This document shows positions 1-20,524 of a stretch of DNA of 29,908 bases, piece after piece; the first letter of the stretch is position 1, and each line of letters opens with the position of its first letter. Origin of the DNA: a virus; the IMG/VR virus record IMGVR_UViG_3300035633_001162, positions 1 through 29,908 of that record, one strand, 5' to 3'. The translations under genes and the position numbers were made by a program. Below the pieces are notes generated by a model that saw nothing but the letters and a program-made list of their open reading frames with translations, was not told where the DNA came from and did not search any database.

Positions 1-1899
1 AGCTAATGCTACGTTTTCAAATGCTTCAAGTTGTTCTGTATTCAATTTAGCAATTGAATCAGCCATCTTAGCAAATCCCTCAGCAGCTAGGTTTATACCA
101 GCACCAACACCAGCAGCAGCGAGACCTGCTCCTGCTCCAGCACCTAGTGCTTTAAGCCCACCACCAGCACCAGCTTTTAAACCACCAGCAGCACCACCTT
201 TACCACCTCCCATACCACCAATTTTAGGTAGAATGCTTTTAGCCATAGATATACCCTTGGTAACAAGTAGAGCAGCACCACCAAGTGCAACTGCACCTGC
301 AACTAAATTACCGCCAGTCTCTCCGAAAGATGGGATCATTTTTGTTAATGATTTAGCAGCATCTAGTACTGTTTCAATAACTGGACGAATAAATTGTAGA
401 ACAGCATTAATTCCATCTAAAAGAGGTAGTAGTGTCGCCTTAAATTCATTCATGGTATTTTGAAAGACCTTATCGAATGTTTGTGCATCTTTTGCACGAT
501 CTTCTAGTGATTTAGCTTGAGTTTCAAGTGCACGAGCTTCGGTAAGTGTAACTTTACCAATATCTTTTTGAACACCGTTTACGGTAACCATAAATCGACC
601 AGTTTCAGAGTTAAACTCAGCCATACCTTCTATAGCTTCACGTTGTTTTTCACTAAATCCAGAGCCAAGCATCTGTTGTTGAATACGTTGATTTTCAGCA
701 GTTGCTTCAGCCATTTGAAACATTTGCTCTGTAGTCATATTAAGTGCTTTAGCAGCCCCCTCAAGTCTATCACGGTCTGCTGGTGACATAAATTTTTCAA
801 ATGTACCATCAGCATTTTTTCTAAATGTGACAATACCTTTAGTCATTTCTTGAACTTTTTTAGAAAATTTAGCAGGGTCATTTCTAGATAAGAAAAGAAG
901 TTCAAATGGGTCTGATTTCGCAAAATTTCCACCCATCACTTGAAGGTTTGCCGCAAGCTCTACGGCCTTATCTAGTGTACGTGCATGTTCGGCTGAATCA
1001 ATCATCGCACCCATGTCAATACGAAACTTTTCAGCGTGTGTTGCCATCTCAGCAAAACCTTTAACACCTTGCTGAAAAGTAAATGTCTGAAGTTTTTTGA
1101 AATTACTTGAAACACTACGTAAAACCTTAGTTGCGTTGACACCCATTCGTTCACTTGTCTCTACCACACCAGCAACATATTCATTTGTTCTTGCAGCATC
1201 AATTCCCATTTTCTCGAATTCACCAGCTAGACGTGCTGCCCCGTCAACACCAAGACCAGTACCTTTTGCAATTTCAGTAATATTTATAAGCGCATCTGCT
1301 GTCATAGCACGAGCACGACCAGTCTCATTTGCAAAAACACTAGTAACTACACTTAAATCTTGTACAGACGCACCTAGACGAGCAGCAGCAGTAGATGCCT
1401 CATAAATATTTTGTCGAAAAGTGTTCGATTTTTCTCCAGCAAATCCAAGTTCCAATGCAGTACTTTTGATCGCCTCATCAGAATCCATTAAAAATTTAAA
1501 AATTCCAGAGTTTGCAATTTTACCATAAAGATTGGATGCTGCTTCGAGCATACTCACACGTTTTTTTTCTAATTGAACAGCCTTTTCTTGACGTTTGTTG
1601 ATTCTACCAAGCTCACTATATTCTTTCTTAAGATCACTTAAAGCTTTTTTACTGAGTTGATCTGATTTTTTGTCAAGCTCATGCATAGCTTCTTTCATTA
1701 GTGACATTTTTTCACTAATCAATCTTTTTTCAGCTTCAATTTTAAGTTGCTTTTGGTTTGTACGTAGTTGACCACTAATACTTTGCTCCATCTCTAGGTC
1801 AAGAGCAGCAGATCGTTCTTTTTCTCTTACAAGATTTTCGTATGTTTGAAGTATTTTCTGTGCATCATCAGCACTTCCGAAATTTCTTTCGTCAGCCAT
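1..1899 (-). CDS. Tail tape measure protein (3' end lies outside the window)
   Basis: This reading frame is open from an ATG at 1899 to the left edge (633 codons, no stop), so the C-terminal part is missing. It sets tail length and is probably ejected with the DNA. Residues about 1-115 are charged and look coiled-coil (runs of K/E/Q/L). The middle is helical with many A, T, G and M. Residues about 525-620 are a very Gly/Ala-rich hydrophobic stretch (GGMGGGKGGAAGG, then AGAGAGLAAAGVGAG), typical of membrane-interacting segments in tape measure proteins. It follows the gp26-like/chaperone pair on the same strand, the usual order (chaperone, then tape measure). A GTATTTATA motif lies 16 nt before the ATG. 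The family call rests on composition, length and position; no catalytic motif exists to check. Confidence 0.85.
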   Translation of the reverse strand, partial: MADERNFGSADDAQKILQTYENLVREKERSAALDLEMEQSISGQLRTNQKQLKIEAEKRLISEKMSLMKEAMHELDKKSDQLSKKALSDLKKEYSELGRINKRQEKAVQLEKKRVSMLEAASNLYGKIANSGIFKFLMDSDEAIKSTALELGFAGEKSNTFRQNIYEASTAAARLGASVQDLSVVTSVFANETGRARAMTADALINITEIAKGTGLGVDGAARLAGEFEKMGIDAARTNEYVAGVVETSERMGVNATKVLRSVSSNFKKLQTFTFQQGVKGFAEMATHAEKFRIDMGAMIDSAEHARTLDKAVELAANLQVMGGNFAKSDPFELLFLSRNDPAKFSKKVQEMTKGIVTFRKNADGTFEKFMSPADRDRLEGAAKALNMTTEQMFQMAEATAENQRIQQQMLGSGFSEKQREAIEGMAEFNSETGRFMVTVNGVQKDIGKVTLTEARALETQAKSLEDRAKDAQTFDKVFQNTMNEFKATLLPLLDGINAVLQFIRPVIETVLDAAKSLTKMIPSFGETGGNLVAGAVALGGAALLVTKGISMAKSILPKIGGMGGGKGGAAGGLKAGAGGGLKALGAGAGAGLAAAGVGAGINLAAEGFAKMADSIAKLNTEQLEAFENVALA

Positions 1900-1935: not shown

Positions 1936-2133
1936 TTATCGTCTTTTTCGAGTTGGGATACGACCTGCTGATTGTGACTTTCTGCTCATTTTCTCTTGTT
2001 CCGCTTTATGAGCATCTGCTTCTTCTTTAAGAAGATTTAGGTAATATCTACGTTTGTAGACAGGGATGTCTTCAATATATTCAGCATTAAAATGGCCATG
2101 TTTCGTCAAAAGGTAAGTCTCCTGCATGACCAT
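1936..2133 (-). CDS. C-terminal extension of tail assembly chaperone, probably made by -1 frameshift
   Basis: This is a 65-codon frame if begun at its first ATG, but it stays open without a stop upstream to the CCC at 2163-2161, inside the end of the gp26-like gene. Reading from there adds PKSLSGEVKK before the first Met. The encoded segment is basic at the end (KSQSAGRIPTRKRR). It has the motif EDIPVYKRRYYLNLLKEEAD, resembling the short 'minimal' chaperone frames that precede tape measure genes in other tailed phages. No clear ribosome binding site precedes the internal ATG. I therefore favour translation as a fusion with the upstream protein: 348 residues in frame 0 plus 75 in the shifted frame, 423 aa in total. 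An independent 65-aa protein, or a sequencing slip in the T9 run, are the alternatives. Confidence 0.7.
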   Translation of the reverse strand: MVMQETYLLTKHGHFNAEYIEDIPVYKRRYYLNLLKEEADAHKAEQEKMSRKSQSAGRIPTRKRR

Positions 2134-2172
2134 TTTCTTTACTTCACCGCTCAGAGACTTGGGAAAAAAAAA
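2115..2172 (-). promoter_or_regulatory. Programmed -1 ribosomal frameshift signal: slippery run plus stem-loop
   Basis: On the minus strand the sequence reads GTC GAT TTT TTT TTC CCA AGT CTC TGA. The T TTT TTC heptamer (2169-2163) lies in a run of nine T then three C, and is followed four codons later by the frame-0 stop. A shift of -1 at TTC continues as CCC AAG TCT into the 65-codon frame, with no stop. Two bases after the heptamer, AAGTCTC (2160-2154) is the exact complement of GAGACTT (2121-2115). Two further pairs beyond a bulged G give a 7+2 bp stem with a loop of about 28 nt. A slippery heptamer plus 3' structure just upstream of the tape measure gene is the classical layout of tail chaperone frameshifting. 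Confidence 0.7.
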
Positions 2173-3206
2173 TCGACACCAACAACTAATCTTGCATCAA
2201 ATTCATACCCATCTTTAGCTTTGAATCTGTAAGTCATGTCCACATCAGGTGATACTGCAATAATTTTGCTTTTGATGGTAATCGCATCACGTACAGGCAT
2301 TGCATCCACAAAACGTGAAATGTAATCACGATCTCTATTTCCTTCTATCTCAGTAATATGAGCCTTAAGCTTGAGTGTGGAATATTCATTATATTCCATT
2401 CCATATGCTTCTTGTGTTGCTTTGGCTCTTGCTTGTATAGTATCTTGCTCACCAGCAGTAAGTAGACGGAATTTAATGCGTTTTTTACGCATCGGAACAT
2501 CTACGGTAAACTCACCCATTTCATCTGGAAGCTCTTCAACCTCTTTGTAATTGAGTTTAGTTAAATCGCAAGTATTCTTGATTTTAGCACCAGTTCTAGG
2601 ATCAGCAACATTTACCTCATAATCAGCACCGTAAGATGATGCTCTTAGAAATAGAATGATTGCATTCTTATCTCCTTCAAGAAGATCGGCAGGATTTACA
2701 TTAGGAGTTTTTATCTTTCTCTTAAGGATCACATCCAACACTGTACCTGATTCGATCAATGATGGTGTTGTTAAAATATCTTCATCTTTTGAAGTAAGAT
2801 ATTCCACTTTCACTTCACTTAAACCATCCCTATAAAACATCCCTTTTGATGGAAGTTTTACGATCTCATAAACAATTGAAAGATCAGGATCGGTTTCTGT
2901 TGTGGCCTGTTGATATAAGGATTCCATATTCGATTTTGGTGGTTGTGGAGCGGAATGGGATTGTATCGGTGCACCATAGTTTTGTGGTGGTTGATACGTT
3001 TCTTTTGGCATTTGCTGACCCACAGATTCAGATTGGAGGGCTTGAATGGTTCTTTTTTCGGCCTCATCTAAATCAACACCACCGTCAACAGTTGCGTTTG
3101 GATTGGGTGTGTATGATGGTGTATAAGATTCAGGGTTATTTGGGTTTTGACCTTTAGCCTTATAAAAGTTTTCAAAATGCTTTCTTACTTCTTCTGGATT
3201 GTCCAT
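2151..3206 (-). CDS. gp26-like baseplate/tail assembly chaperone protein (frame-0 product)
   Basis: 351 aa. Residues about 1-100 are polar and disordered (many P, N, Q, S), with a charged start (NPEEVRKHFENFYKAKG). Residues about 108-345 carry the conserved part: EIVKLPSKGMFYRDG, then VKVEYLTSKDEDILTTP, LIESGTVLDVILKR, LEGDKNAIILFLRASSYG and FRLLTAGEQD. This pattern is known from the T4 gp26 baseplate family of T4-like phages. T4 gp26 is about 200 aa, so the N-terminal 100 residues are extra. The frame ends in DFFFPSL after a T9-C3 run, where a -1 shift would append 75 residues from the next frame. Together they would be the short and long forms of a tail assembly chaperone for the tape measure protein. 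The family assignment is from motif memory; the chaperone role is inferred from the frameshift and position. Confidence 0.7.
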   Translation of the reverse strand: MDNPEEVRKHFENFYKAKGQNPNNPESYTPSYTPNPNATVDGGVDLDEAEKRTIQALQSESVGQQMPKETYQPPQNYGAPIQSHSAPQPPKSNMESLYQQATTETDPDLSIVYEIVKLPSKGMFYRDGLSEVKVEYLTSKDEDILTTPSLIESGTVLDVILKRKIKTPNVNPADLLEGDKNAIILFLRASSYGADYEVNVADPRTGAKIKNTCDLTKLNYKEVEELPDEMGEFTVDVPMRKKRIKFRLLTAGEQDTIQARAKATQEAYGMEYNEYSTLKLKAHITEIEGNRDRDYISRFVDAMPVRDAITIKSKIIAVSPDVDMTYRFKAKDGYEFDARLVVGVDFFFPSL

Positions 3207-11842: not shown

Positions 11843-12256
11843 CTAACCTTGAGTGAGGATGTACTGCTTAATGGTATCTGGACTTGCTTCACCTATTGAA
11901 CAAACGAAATAACCATCTGACCAAAAGGTTCTTTCCTTCCAAAAATGCTTGAATAAGAATGACCTGTGAGATGAGTGCCAAATGTGATAGGTAGATTCTT
12001 GCTTTAACTTACGGACAATAGATGTGATAGAAAGACGAGATATGTAGCGAATAAGGAAGTGGATATGGTCAAGGTCACTTTCAAAGACTTCAATCTCAAA
12101 ATCTGAATTAGAAGTAATATTTAATAGAATAGACCGCATATCATCTTTTAACTGACCGACAAGTAACTTTTTGCGGTACTTACAAACAAAAATGAGATGA
12201 CACTTTAGGTAATGCTTTGAACGATTTGTGGAAATGTACTGTGATTTTTTAGACAT
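11843..12256 (-). CDS. tnpA: IS200/IS605 family Y1 transposase TnpA
   Basis: 137 aa, the normal length for this family. The HUH motif HIHFL lies at residues 64-68, and the catalytic tyrosine is Y132 in IKQYILTQ near the C-terminus. The opening NRSKHYLKCHLIFVCKYRKK and SITSIVRKLKQESTYHIW are standard IS200 TnpA sequence. It excises and inserts the element as single-stranded DNA via 5'-phosphotyrosine links. It is divergent from tnpB, with its ATG 94 nt from the likely tnpB start. All key residues are present, so the element may still move. Confidence 0.9.
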   Translation of the reverse strand: MSKKSQYISTNRSKHYLKCHLIFVCKYRKKLLVGQLKDDMRSILLNITSNSDFEIEVFESDLDHIHFLIRYISRLSITSIVRKLKQESTYHIWHSSHRSFLFKHFWKERTFWSDGYFVCSIGEASPDTIKQYILTQG

Positions 12257-12315
12257 ACTGGAGAATTTTTGTGAAAGTTTTTTACCCGAATACGGAAACT
12301 TTTACAAAAAATTCG

Positions 12316-12323
12316 TATTTTTG
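12316..12323 (+). promoter_or_regulatory. TAnnTTTG-like -7 element for tnpB
   Basis: TATTTTTG matches the Bacteroidota -7 consensus TAnnTTTG and lies 27 nt before the likely GTG start of tnpB. No convincing -33 TTG element was found at the expected distance, so the call is weak. Confidence 0.3.
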
Positions 12324-12350
12324 CATAAATGCAGACTATTCACTAATAGA

Positions 12351-13544
12351 GTGAAAACAATACATAGGACATATCGCTTTGAATTAAGACCAACACAGGA
12401 ACAAAAAGTGTTGTTGGACAAACATTTCGGATGCGTTCGCTATGTCTACAATCACTTCCTGAATGAACGTAAAGAGCAGTATCAGGCAAACAAAAAGTCT
12501 GATAATTACTATGTTCAAGCAAAAACTTTAACTGAATTAAAGAAGCAAGAAGAAACTATTTGGCTTAAAGAAGTTAATAGCCAAACATTACAGTTTGCTT
12601 TGAGGTCATTAGATACGGCATATCTTAACTTTTTTCGTGGTAATGCTAAGTTTCCAAGATTTAAGTCTAAGAAAAGAAAGAATGGTTTCACTGTGCCACA
12701 GCACACAAAACTAATTGACAGTAAAATTCACGTTCCAAAGTTCAAGGAAGGAATTAAATGTATTGTTCACCGTGAAGTAAAAGGTGATGTTGGTAAAATG
12801 ACTTTTTCCAAAACACCAACTGGAAGATATTTTGTATCAATCTTAACCGAAGAACAATATCAACCAAAAGAAAAAACTGGTGCTATTTGTGGTGTAGATT
12901 TAGGATTGAAAGACTTTGCTATTACTTCTGATGGAATAAAATTCAAGAACAACAGATATACAAAAAAATATGAAAGAGATTTAGCGAAAGCACAAAAACA
13001 CTTATCTCGTAAACAAAAAGGCAGTAGTTCGTTTGAAAAACAAAGACGAAAGGTAGCCAAGATACACGAGAAAATATCCAACACAAGACAAGATGTATTG
13101 CATAAGGTATCACATCAACTTGTTTCTGACTATGACATAATTGCACTTGAAGACCTTAATGTAAAAGGAATGATGAGCAATAGGAAATTGTCAAAACATA
13201 TAGCAGATGCAAGCTGGGGTACATTTGTGAGATTTTTAGAGTACAAAGCTGATTGGAACGATAAGCAAGTTGTTAAAATAAACCGCTTTTACCCCAGTTC
13301 AAAAACGTGTAACGTCTGCGGTTGGATAAATCAAGATTTAAATCTTTCAGTTCGTGAATGGACTTGCAAAAATGGACATCACTTAGATAGGGATGAAAAT
13401 GCTGCAAAAAACATTCTAAATGAAGGGTTAAAGATAATATCGTCAGGAACTGGCGATTACACGGGTGGAGCTATAAATAAGACTTCTTTCGAGAAGCATA
13501 AAGCTGTGAAACCCGAAGCTCATTTGTCTTTAGCAAATGGGTAG
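12351..13544 (+). CDS. tnpB: TnpB, RNA-guided RuvC-type nuclease of the IS element
   Basis: I choose the GTG at 12351 (397 aa). The frame also runs upstream to an ATG at 12228, but those 41 residues are not TnpB-like, while KTIHRTYRFELRPTQEQ is the standard TnpB opening. RuvC residues are present: D183 in GVDLGLKDFAI, E267 in IALEDLNVKGM and the LDRDENAAKNI motif at about 345-355. The zinc finger has C320 and C323 (CNVCGW) and C339, but the usual fourth Cys is replaced by NGHH, so a His may serve. TnpB with its omega RNA cuts DNA matching the sequence flanking the element next to a target motif, which favours retention of the element. The 3' end of the gene contains the right-end hairpin. Confidence 0.9.
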   Translation: MKTIHRTYRFELRPTQEQKVLLDKHFGCVRYVYNHFLNERKEQYQANKKSDNYYVQAKTLTELKKQEETIWLKEVNSQTLQFALRSLDTAYLNFFRGNAKFPRFKSKKRKNGFTVPQHTKLIDSKIHVPKFKEGIKCIVHREVKGDVGKMTFSKTPTGRYFVSILTEEQYQPKEKTGAICGVDLGLKDFAITSDGIKFKNNRYTKKYERDLAKAQKHLSRKQKGSSSFEKQRRKVAKIHEKISNTRQDVLHKVSHQLVSDYDIIALEDLNVKGMMSNRKLSKHIADASWGTFVRFLEYKADWNDKQVVKINRFYPSSKTCNVCGWINQDLNLSVREWTCKNGHHLDRDENAAKNILNEGLKIISSGTGDYTGGAINKTSFEKHKAVKPEAHLSLANG

Positions 13545-14980: not shown

Positions 14981-17716
14981 TTATGCAATATCATCGAATG
15001 AAGCCCCTGAAGGAGTAATGGTAAAGGTGATACCAATGAATTCAACAGCACGTGTTGGTTTCAGGAATATTTCACCAAATAACTCATTTCTATCTCTAGT
15101 TTCAGGAGTATTATTACTATCATCCATCTTAACTCTAAAGTCATCCAAACCTCTTTCTCTTCGGATTGTATCCAAGATAGGATTAGTTTGTGACAAGAAT
15201 TGGTCGATGGTGGTTTGATCGTTTTGTTCAAATACAAGTCTGATCGCAATGTTTGAAATAAGAACTTTTGCTTGAAGCAGAAGTCTTCTAACATTAATTC
15301 TATCAAGTGCAGACTCTCTAACCTGCATAGTTTTCTGACCAAAGATTGCAGTACCAACATCATTAAAGTCAGCCATAGGATTAATACGTCCTGCATACAA
15401 GATATCTCTTGCATCGAGTGACATTCTATATTTTGACTTAACAGCGTTCGTAACACCTCTTTGTAGACCAGCAGGTGCAAACCATGGGAATTTCACATTG
15501 TCAGTGAAAGCAATTGCTCTTACTACTTCTGCGGTAGGTGGGATAAATACCCTAACATTGTTTTCAGTGTCATTGAATTGAATCCATGGATAATATGTTG
15601 CAGAATAACTACTGTCAATATCAGCAGCATCAAATAAATCAACAATATCATTGGCAACAGTTACGTCTACTCTCTCACCCACAGAAAGCGGGATGTCAAT
15701 ATCTGGTGCATCAATAATATAAAGTGAATCAGTACGCTCTTCTTCTACCATTTCGATAGCGTCACGTACAAGACTTAAATTATCTGACCAGTTAAGAGCA
15801 GGTGTTGCAAATAAGTTGATAGTGATTTCTTCAGGGTTAGCAAACGTTCTGATTGCAGTTTGCCATGCTTGATAGTCATTAGAAGGAGTGAATCCGTCAT
15901 CAACACCATCAAATGGCCCGCCTTGTCTGAATAGATCACCATTGCTTCTTTCATTTCTATGTTCATCCCATCCACCAAATCCACCAGCAGGAACTAGTGT
16001 GAATTTACGAGAATTAACCTCGAAGTATGTGTCTGATTCAGCATTTACATCAGAGATGGTTCTGAATCTACCAGCACCCACTTCAAACTCACCAATTATT
16101 TGGTTACCATCAATAAAAATTCCAGTTGCACCTGAGTCCATGTGGAAACCTTTCGATTTCACAAAACCAGATTTTCCTTTGTAATTAAAGATGTTTTGGT
16201 TAAATCCTGATCCTCTAAGAGATACACCGTCATATCCTCTTTCAGATATACCAAGGAATACTCGGTTTAATCTATCATCAGGAGCATATTCAGTTTTATA
16301 GAAAATTCTAGGTGCAATACCAGCCTCGCTATTAGGAGTTGATGTTGCAGAAACAGCGTAATCTTTCTGTAGATACCCTTCAAAACCAGCAGGGAATGCA
16401 TCTTGTGGTGAATCCTCATTTAGTTCAAGCATTATGAATTCACTTCGTAATGGATAATCACCATTTGATGTACCGATTCTATTACCAATGAAGTTGGTTT
16501 CAGAACGTCTCATGGTACAACGAGTAAATGATTCTAGAACTGTTTGATTCTGGTCGGTATCATTAAAATCACGAACAAGGACATTAAATTCTTTTGTAAT
16601 AGGGTCAATGTTAGTGATTGAAATTTTTATTTCTTGATTTGCAGCGTTACCGTCAGAAATAGAAATGAATCTAAATAGTCTTTCTACCTCAGAACCACGA
16701 AGCTCTGAAACAACCCAAGGTGTTTCAGGTGTCTGGAACTGATCACGATAATCTGTAAACGAGTTACTAGTACCAACAATAACTTCAGTATTTACACCGT
16801 AAGCAAGTCCGTCAGCGTCTAGTTTTTTAATAAGGTCAGGAAAAATCTCCTCAACCCAAATCTTATTATTTTTTCCTTTTGGTTGGTTACCAATTACGTT
16901 TGGTAGGTATTCTCTTGAATTTGGATCAAGAGAAACAGTAAATGTTTCTGAAGTACTGTCAACAGAATTTGAAGCAACAATATTGAAGCTTCCAAAAAGA
17001 TCACCAACTCCTTGATTAGTATCGTTTGCTGATACCACTAATGAATCAGCTTCAAAAATGGTGTCAGGTGGGATATTTTCTTCATCTTGTACAAAAGCTC
17101 TTGAACGAATGGTTGCTAAAACCATACCTTCGTATTCTTGGAATGATGAAGCGGTGATTGTTGATGTTTTAGTATCAACAGTACCCACGCCATTATTAAT
17201 TGTTGTTGCAGTAAATTCTACCAGAACACCTTCAAATGTGGTGTCACTAACCTTGGTAAAGCCTGTGAAAGTTGATGCTTGGTCACCTACGAAATTCAAG
17301 GTTTGACCTAAATAGCTATTGCCTGAGAAAGCATCAGTGCCGTTAACAACACTAGTCACACCAGATGTGCTAACATCAGCACCAGCACTTAGTGTGAGCG
17401 ACCATGCAGTTCCAGCCTCGTATCCACTAAGACCCAAAACTCTTGTAACAAACAATTGACTTGATTCCTCAAGGTATGCATTGGCAACGTAAGGTAGTTG
17501 ATATCTTAACTGACCATTTGGAAATCTTAATGTACTTTGTCTTCCAAATCTAGTCTGGAATTGAGTCTGATCTTGAATAAATACGGGTTCAAACGCTGGG
17601 CCTTTCTGTGTTTCACCGACAACACCTAATGTTGTTACTCCTACGTTTCTAGTAACGAACGTCAGGTCTCTTTCTCTAAACTTTACTCCCGGTGAGGTAA
17701 ATACGAATTCAGCCAT
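14981..17716 (-). CDS. Tail sheath protein, gp18-like, large form
   Basis: 911 aa, against 659 for T4 gp18. The N-terminus FVFTSPGVKFRERDLTFVTRN is the conserved sheath opening ('sPGV...E.d'), followed by GVVGETQKGPAFEPVFI and a long variable middle (about 120-600) rich in beta-prone and D/N/T residues, the extra protruding domain region. The C-terminal third is conserved: TYYPWIQFNDTENNVRVFIPPTAEVVRA, WFAPAGLQRGV, then RINPMADFNDVGTAIFGQKTMQ and RINVRRLLLQAKV, ending LKPTRAVEFIGITFTIT. It forms the contractile outer tube around gp19-like rings. It has its own late motif 53 nt upstream and a terminator downstream. Confidence 0.93.
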   Translation of the reverse strand: MAEFVFTSPGVKFRERDLTFVTRNVGVTTLGVVGETQKGPAFEPVFIQDQTQFQTRFGRQSTLRFPNGQLRYQLPYVANAYLEESSQLFVTRVLGLSGYEAGTAWSLTLSAGADVSTSGVTSVVNGTDAFSGNSYLGQTLNFVGDQASTFTGFTKVSDTTFEGVLVEFTATTINNGVGTVDTKTSTITASSFQEYEGMVLATIRSRAFVQDEENIPPDTIFEADSLVVSANDTNQGVGDLFGSFNIVASNSVDSTSETFTVSLDPNSREYLPNVIGNQPKGKNNKIWVEEIFPDLIKKLDADGLAYGVNTEVIVGTSNSFTDYRDQFQTPETPWVVSELRGSEVERLFRFISISDGNAANQEIKISITNIDPITKEFNVLVRDFNDTDQNQTVLESFTRCTMRRSETNFIGNRIGTSNGDYPLRSEFIMLELNEDSPQDAFPAGFEGYLQKDYAVSATSTPNSEAGIAPRIFYKTEYAPDDRLNRVFLGISERGYDGVSLRGSGFNQNIFNYKGKSGFVKSKGFHMDSGATGIFIDGNQIIGEFEVGAGRFRTISDVNAESDTYFEVNSRKFTLVPAGGFGGWDEHRNERSNGDLFRQGGPFDGVDDGFTPSNDYQAWQTAIRTFANPEEITINLFATPALNWSDNLSLVRDAIEMVEEERTDSLYIIDAPDIDIPLSVGERVDVTVANDIVDLFDAADIDSSYSATYYPWIQFNDTENNVRVFIPPTAEVVRAIAFTDNVKFPWFAPAGLQRGVTNAVKSKYRMSLDARDILYAGRINPMADFNDVGTAIFGQKTMQVRESALDRINVRRLLLQAKVLISNIAIRLVFEQNDQTTIDQFLSQTNPILDTIRRERGLDDFRVKMDDSNNTPETRDRNELFGEIFLKPTRAVEFIGITFTITPSGASFDDIA

Positions 17717-19963: not shown

Positions 19964-20524
19964 TTATTTAGTAAGACGATATATGGCACCAATTGGTTCA
20001 TTATCAAACTCTGAAGCAATCAATTTGAAATCAACATATTTATCTGAACCATCAAGGCTGTAGCCAACCAAATCAAATTCATCATATGTAGTTCCATTTG
20101 TGTAGGCATAGAATCCAATTGGTTCATCATCACTGTTATATTTCACAGTAACCAATTTTCTTTCTTCAAATTTATCAGGGGTACATGGATCAGTAAAAAT
20201 TACTACATATTCTGAACTATCGGCAGGTGTGCCAAAATATTGAGAAAGGTCAGTAGTTATTTCAGCATTTCGTCCTGAATATTGATCCTGCATAGAGGGG
20301 AATGGAAAATTTTCACCTTCCATAGACTCACAAGTGGTGTAAGTTACATCATTGTAAGTTGTGCTTTCCCATGTCCAGTCACCATCAAATTCACTGATAT
20401 CGAAAGGGAGTTGATTTTCAATAGGATCATCCATAGGAGTGATGTCCTCACCAGAGTCGTTACAAGAAGCCAGTGTAAGTACAACTAGTACAAATACGGG
20501 CAAAATTTTCAATAGATTTTTCAT
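19964..20524 (-). CDS. Predicted surface lipoprotein (phage-borne, lysogenic-conversion-like cargo)
   Basis: 186 aa. The N-terminus is a clear lipoprotein signal: two Lys/Asn residues, a hydrophobic core (LLKILPVFVLVVLTL) and the lipobox LASC with Cys at residue 21. Acidic residues follow the Cys (NDSGED), similar to surface-export signals of Bacteroidota lipoproteins. The mature part reads like a small beta-barrel domain: EFDGDWTWESTTYNDVTY at about 49-66, then strands such as EYVVIFTDPCTPDKF, VDFKLIASEFD and the end AIYRLTK, reminiscent of lipocalin-like lipoproteins. It stands alone on the minus strand between late plus-strand genes, with its own terminator. It may block receptors against superinfection, as T5 Llp does, or alter the host surface; no direct evidence. 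Confidence 0.75.
   Translation of the reverse strand: MKNLLKILPVFVLVVLTLASCNDSGEDITPMDDPIENQLPFDISEFDGDWTWESTTYNDVTYTTCESMEGENFPFPSMQDQYSGRNAEITTDLSQYFGTPADSSEYVVIFTDPCTPDKFEERKLVTVKYNSDDEPIGFYAYTNGTTYDEFDLVGYSLDGSDKYVDFKLIASEFDNEPIGAIYRLTK

Follow-up and report, generated by a model that had tools for sequence, protein, structure and literature searches.

On its minus strand, the window (the whole viral DNA stretch analysed, 29,908 nucleotides) carries a locus that very probably encodes a TAC-N/TAC-NC tail chaperone pair of the lambda G/GT type, made by a -1 slip, in a T4-like (gp26-family) contractile-tail phage; this reading rests on sequence comparison. A programmed -1 frameshift adding a C-terminal extension to a gp26-family chaperone had been proposed from the letters of the locus. 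It is strongly supported by the comparative evidence: a universal heptamer, a -1 frame that is under coding constraint and lacks a start codon ahead of the stop, a gp51-like extension and a modestly chaperone-like fold. Overlap, heptamer, coding constraint and homology are established by this comparison.

Layout, predicted products and surroundings of the locus

1-1899, minus strand: probable tape measure gene, assigned by position and Gly/Ala-rich composition; extends beyond the window edge
1936-2163, minus strand: gp51-like C-terminal extension ('T'), read in the -1 frame; fused to the gp26-like part it forms TAC-NC
2087-2134, minus strand: window-specific hairpin AAAATGGTCATG..CATGGCCATTTT, -19 kcal/mol, z -3.0
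2131-2133, minus strand: first ATG of the -1 frame, an alternative internal start; ATG in 55/60 relatives
2151-2153, minus strand: frame-0 stop TGA; most relatives have TAG, over Leu-Ala codons of the -1 frame
2151-3206, minus strand: gp26-like gene, 351 aa, short chaperone form (TAC-N, 'G')
2160-2154 with 2121-2115, minus strand: originally predicted stem AAGTCTC/GAGACTT, beginning 2 nt past the heptamer
2169-2163, minus strand: slippery heptamer T TTT TTC, within T9-C3 (2172-2161), from sequence and relatives
2172-2164 and 2163-2161, minus strand: T9 and C3 of the T9-C3 run, from sequence

The gp26-like gene ends in frame 0 with GAT TTT TTT TTC CCA AGT CTC TGA, three sense codons separating TTC from the stop TGA (2153-2151). 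A ribosome slipping by -1 at T TTT TTC would enter an open frame that begins at 2163 (PKSLSGEVKKMVMQETYLL...) and is closed by a stop at 1936; the predicted fusion product has a junction peptide across DFFFPKSLSGEVK. The 65 codons given for this ORF are its length from the first ATG (2133). Frame end, T9-C3 run and entry into the -1 frame agree with the original prediction, the letters of its stem included.

The majority of ribosomes would halt at TGA and yield the short, gp26-like form (TAC-N). A minority would slip by -1 at T TTT TTC, the Phe-tRNAs re-pairing on UUU UUU, and would then read past the stop and add a helical gp51-like extension of ~75 residues, giving TAC-NC. If the roles match those of lambda G/GT, TAC-N would form a coat on the tape measure protein, and the extension of TAC-NC would bring in tail tube subunits. 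These roles, like the slip on U UUU UUC and its rate, are deduced.

Tail chaperones made by -1 frameshift are reportedly known from lambda (G/GT) and P2 (E/E+E') (Levin 1993; Christie 2002; Xu 2004). The slip heptamers are G GGA AAG in lambda and T TTT TTG in P2. Shared with the window are a short gene, a heptamer near its end, an extension without an early start and, presumably, a position before the tape measure gene. The window chaperone is not known to be related in sequence to lambda G/GT or P2 E/E+E'.

The gp26-like ORF matches PF12322 T4_baseplate (E 6.7e-8; 32.9 bits against a gathering cut-off of 24.5; residues 113-333) and phrog_150 baseplate hub (E 5.4e-8). Its AlphaFold model (pLDDT 91) suggests, modestly, a chaperone-like fold. 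Tail assembly chaperones are its closest counterparts in the PDB, the best 3 of 14 VIA-align matches being YqbN 3klu (Z 5.8), HK97 chaperone 2ob9 (Z 5.2) and PICI ORF19 5ir0 (Z 4.3); Z-scores of 5-6 are modest, and Foldseek gives E 1.1 against 2ob9. The extension matches phrog_634 'baseplate hub assembly catalyst' (gp51) at E 0.003, an individually weak match that recurs at E 0.1 or better in 11/54 relatives (best 2.6e-4). In profile-profile comparison, the extension of the clade matches that of cyanophages at 1.2e-4; in hhalign, it matches that of the immuto/Mel-JY01 group described below at 1.2e-13, the alignment running from the slip site onward.

The locus had been placed directly before the tape measure gene. 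ORF 1-1899 does come directly after it, and its identity is by position: it has no significant tape-measure match and matches the annotated tape measure protein of Flavobacterium phage immuto weakly (E 0.037). An annotated tape measure gene stands at the matching place in immuto and, with one ORF between, in Cr30.

The host is probably a member of the Bacteroidota, because the nearest named relative is a Flavobacterium phage and the window contains a Bacteroidota-like lipoprotein signal. This signal (MKNLLKILPVFVLVVLTLASCNDS) belongs to a small protein encoded between tail genes (19964-20524); it hints at the host, and the protein may be a surface factor. The phage structural region also contains an IS200/IS605-type insertion (11843-13544), with TnpA (PF01797) on the minus strand and TnpB (PF01385, PF07282) on the plus strand. 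The tail sheath protein (14981-17716) is unusually long, 911 aa, with a PF17482 C-terminal domain.

Relatives, reading register and coding constraint

Profile-based scans of IMG/VR viral contigs give 80 loci that belong to the clade of the window. Of these, 61 are distinct and readable; 60 were scored for codon use, start codons and T-run length. Relatives are found by such scans only: the window's two single proteins find none in the viral contigs, and the extension alone as tblastn query has no match in phages. The overlap with an open -1 frame is kept in 61/61 distinct loci, as is the heptamer, T TTT TTC or T TTT TTT. The site consensus is GA[T/C] TTT TTT T[T/C]C CC (61 distinct loci). Where the third codon is TCC, GAT precedes the site, so T TTT TTT stays; where GAC precedes it, the third codon is TTC, so T TTT TTC stays. 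At the site, the first two Phe codons read TTT in 60/60, whereas 19% of the Phe codons elsewhere in these genes are TTC (naive P 1.7e-11). Of the 60 scored loci, 51 have a T9 run and 9 a T8 run.

The main doubt about the original prediction was that a sequencing or assembly error in the homopolymer had split one continuous gene. The T9 run at the site lends itself to this, and one related locus, L019, has an in-frame fusion with T8-G. The doubt is removed by the 61 distinct relatives, which come from many independent samples, have about 51-64% protein identity and share the register unchanged; overlap and slippery heptamer in all of them exclude a homopolymer error. As a general explanation, sequence error is already refuted, and for the locus it is scarcely conceivable. 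In L019 (3340-3370), both parts lie in one frame (GAG TTT TTT TTG CCC); this implies either that a shift is needed to make the short form or that the record contains a homopolymer error. This fusion appears in its own record only, and biology and sequence error are indistinguishable there.

Runs of ~9 T can cause RNA polymerase slippage. Transcriptional slippage on T8-T9, which would give mRNAs in both frames with no ribosomal slip, is in keeping with the run lengths of the clade but is unlikely: cyanophage-type relatives have T6-C only, and the codon register of the heptamer survives shortening of the run. The conserved downstream RNA structure and the upstream SD-like motif described below fit ribosomes and would be superfluous for a polymerase.

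Purifying selection acts on the -1 frame, and does so already upstream of the first ATG. It contains no ATG, GTG or TTG ahead of the frame-0 stop in 60/60 clade loci. The five codons between this stop and the usual ATG, mostly GEYKK, have pN/pS 0.16 in the -1 frame of the clade against 3.7 (frame 0) and 3.4 in the other frames. Downstream of the ATG, pN/pS in the -1 frame of the clade is 0.20.

Very unlikely is a pair of separate proteins, with the extension translated alone from its ATG (2133) and no fusion product. It would account for the presence of this ATG in most relatives, with an A-rich leader upstream as in Bacteroidota, and for the annotation of cyanophage gp51 as a separate short gene. 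Against it, the codons ahead of the ATG are conserved as -1-frame protein (LAGEYKK, at the low pN/pS given above), and the ATG is missing in 5/60 clade loci (L133, L135, L137, L150, L155). A start codon is likewise missing within the first 20 codons past the slip site in 36/71 loci of the immuto/Mel-JY01 group, and an ATG within the first 18 codons in 13/79 cyanophage-type loci. Separate initiation would also leave the heptamer unexplained. The extension is modelled as helical (pLDDT 86), and its predicted first helix begins upstream of the ATG and spans it. As an addition to the fusion, given the ATG in 55/60, initiation at this codon is possible.

RNA elements flanking the slip site

Alignment of relatives keeps the T-run and the -1 frame but not the stem AAGTCTC/GAGACTT. 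Its letters are present in the window; across relatives, a mean of 3.3/7 pairs remains, and the stem is complete in 2/59. It is also absent from the minimum-energy fold of the window and was rejected as a conserved element. The window-specific hairpin (2087-2134) stands about 28 nt past the heptamer.

The clade has a two-helix structure 8 nt downstream of the heptamer, TTAGCG/CGCTAA enclosing TGGTC/GACCA. In alignment A5, 90.1% of cells are paired versus 86.2 in shuffled alignments; slid versions of the structure, used as controls, reach at most 37%. Double changes number 40 versus 16.6 shuffled (0/500 shuffles as high), kinship among loci inflating such double-change and covariation counts. 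Third-position pairs covary at 15/66 (GC 31, AU 15) and 36/57 (CG 28, UA 12). Covariation at these synonymous third positions is not explained by protein coding; it carries the weight because the structure was derived from individual folds of the same sequences, which favours it. RNAalifold gives no consensus structure on the clade alignment. The window keeps the structure partly, with 3/8 outer and 6/8 inner pairs, and lacks the outer helix.

An SD-like motif lies 8-10 nt upstream of the heptamer in 79/79 cyanophage-type loci. It is absent in 56/60 loci of the window clade.

T4, cyanophages and the direction of the shift

T4 has 26 and 51 as two separate, divergent genes. Residues 17-171 of gp51 resemble gp26 (pairwise blastp 2e-6). 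The cyanophage extension has its counterpart in gp51 residues 208-245 (E 1.2e-7), and the cyanophage short form has its own in T4 gp26 (2.8e-12). Since gp51 consists of a gp26-like part plus the same extension, it resembles the long form, and T4 gp26 the short one. Like the window products, they have the PF12322/phrog_150 short part and the phrog_634 extension, the long form being a short-type domain plus extension. T4 differs from the window in having two separate divergent genes; in the window, and likewise in cyanophages, both parts share a single overlapping locus with a -1 shift. That T4 is without a known frameshift, as the original prediction had remarked, is explained by gp26 and gp51 being separate genes. 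Reviews of T4 list both as hub assembly chaperones (PMC3004832), and a 2016 review describes the G-T frameshift as conserved 'except T4' (PMC5009743).

The link from gp26 to the tail chaperones, earlier regarded as new, was already published: according to papers citing it (PMC10885494, PMC12846349), the work of Vladimirov, Gautam & Davidson 2022 (Virology 566:9-15) identified the chaperone genes of T4-like phages. In some T4-like phages, a short gene and a second, longer fused gene reportedly take the place of the frameshift (PMC10885494, citing Vladimirov 2022). PMC12846349 cites -1 signals of the poly-T type for the TAC-N genes of T4-like phages. Frameshifted tail chaperones, and gp26 and gp51 as chaperones, are of a known kind. 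The window locus is a further frameshifted chaperone, and the change of shift direction is the least expected part. With it, an uncultured group of T4-like phages, whose hosts are probably Bacteroidota, joins the tail-chaperone frameshifters. The finding also accounts for a short ORF that is miscalled or cut short in automatic annotation (e.g. 36 aa in immuto), and it fits T4 gp26 and gp51 as short and long forms of a single chaperone.

Kyanoviridae gp26/gp51 (S-PM2, P-RSM4, DSL-LC02) share with the window a T TTT TTC -1 shift into a homologous extension. They differ from it in having a single codon between heptamer and stop and in the upstream SD-like motif; in cyanophage-type loci, NNT TTT TTC, one codon and a stop occur in 79/79. 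The heptamer is T TTT TTC also in Straboviridae phage phiAS5 and in Atu_ph07, T TTT TTT in Melnitz-2 and XacN1, and T TTT TTG in RHph_N34. Vandenendeviridae and Andersonviridae are likened by description: a -1 shift at poly-T (GTTTTT) is predicted in their contractile-tail phage chaperone gene (PMC12846349).

The nearest family with both domains at the same junction is a sister group, that of Flavobacterium phage immuto and Microcystis phage Mel-JY01 (L020-L092 except L046, L002, L003, L005). It shifts by +1 (or formally -2), whereas the window shifts by -1. The site is [T/C]TT-T(GG/AC/AT)-CC in 72/74 distinct loci, and its CTT-T and TTT-C forms fit +1 better than -2. In the maximum-likelihood tree of the gp26-like part, the -1 clade of the window (support 100/100) is nested in +1 loci; starred branches give at least two changes of shift direction wherever the root lies, several long branches leaving deeper joins unsure.

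It is rather probable that, within one family of homologous chaperones, the direction changed at least twice at one junction with both protein parts kept. The -1 clade of the window would lie inside a +1 grade that adjoins -1 lineages (XacN1/Atu_ph07, cyanophages); T4 would have swapped the shift for two genes, and the slip aid would have gone from the upstream SD-like motif of cyanophages to the downstream two-helix RNA of the window clade. No description of the +1 group or of the direction change was found in the literature, Vladimirov 2022 being represented by the papers that cite it. The -1/+1 swap at a fixed junction offers a natural series for asking how recoding signals can evolve while the ratio of the two products is kept.

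In immuto, the extension of the +1 group is unannotated or mis-started (annotated e.g. as 36 aa). Near this group, L046 has the extension in the -1 frame past a long spacer, with its own ATG, and may have switched to separate initiation. Det7 (L098), Vibrio D504 (L099) and Cygsa01 (L012) have a gp26-like gene followed by a gp51-like ORF in the -1 frame; there is only TTTTC at the gene end and no heptamer, and Cygsa01 has a TAATG stop-start overlap. This arrangement possibly reflects reinitiation or a weak slip.
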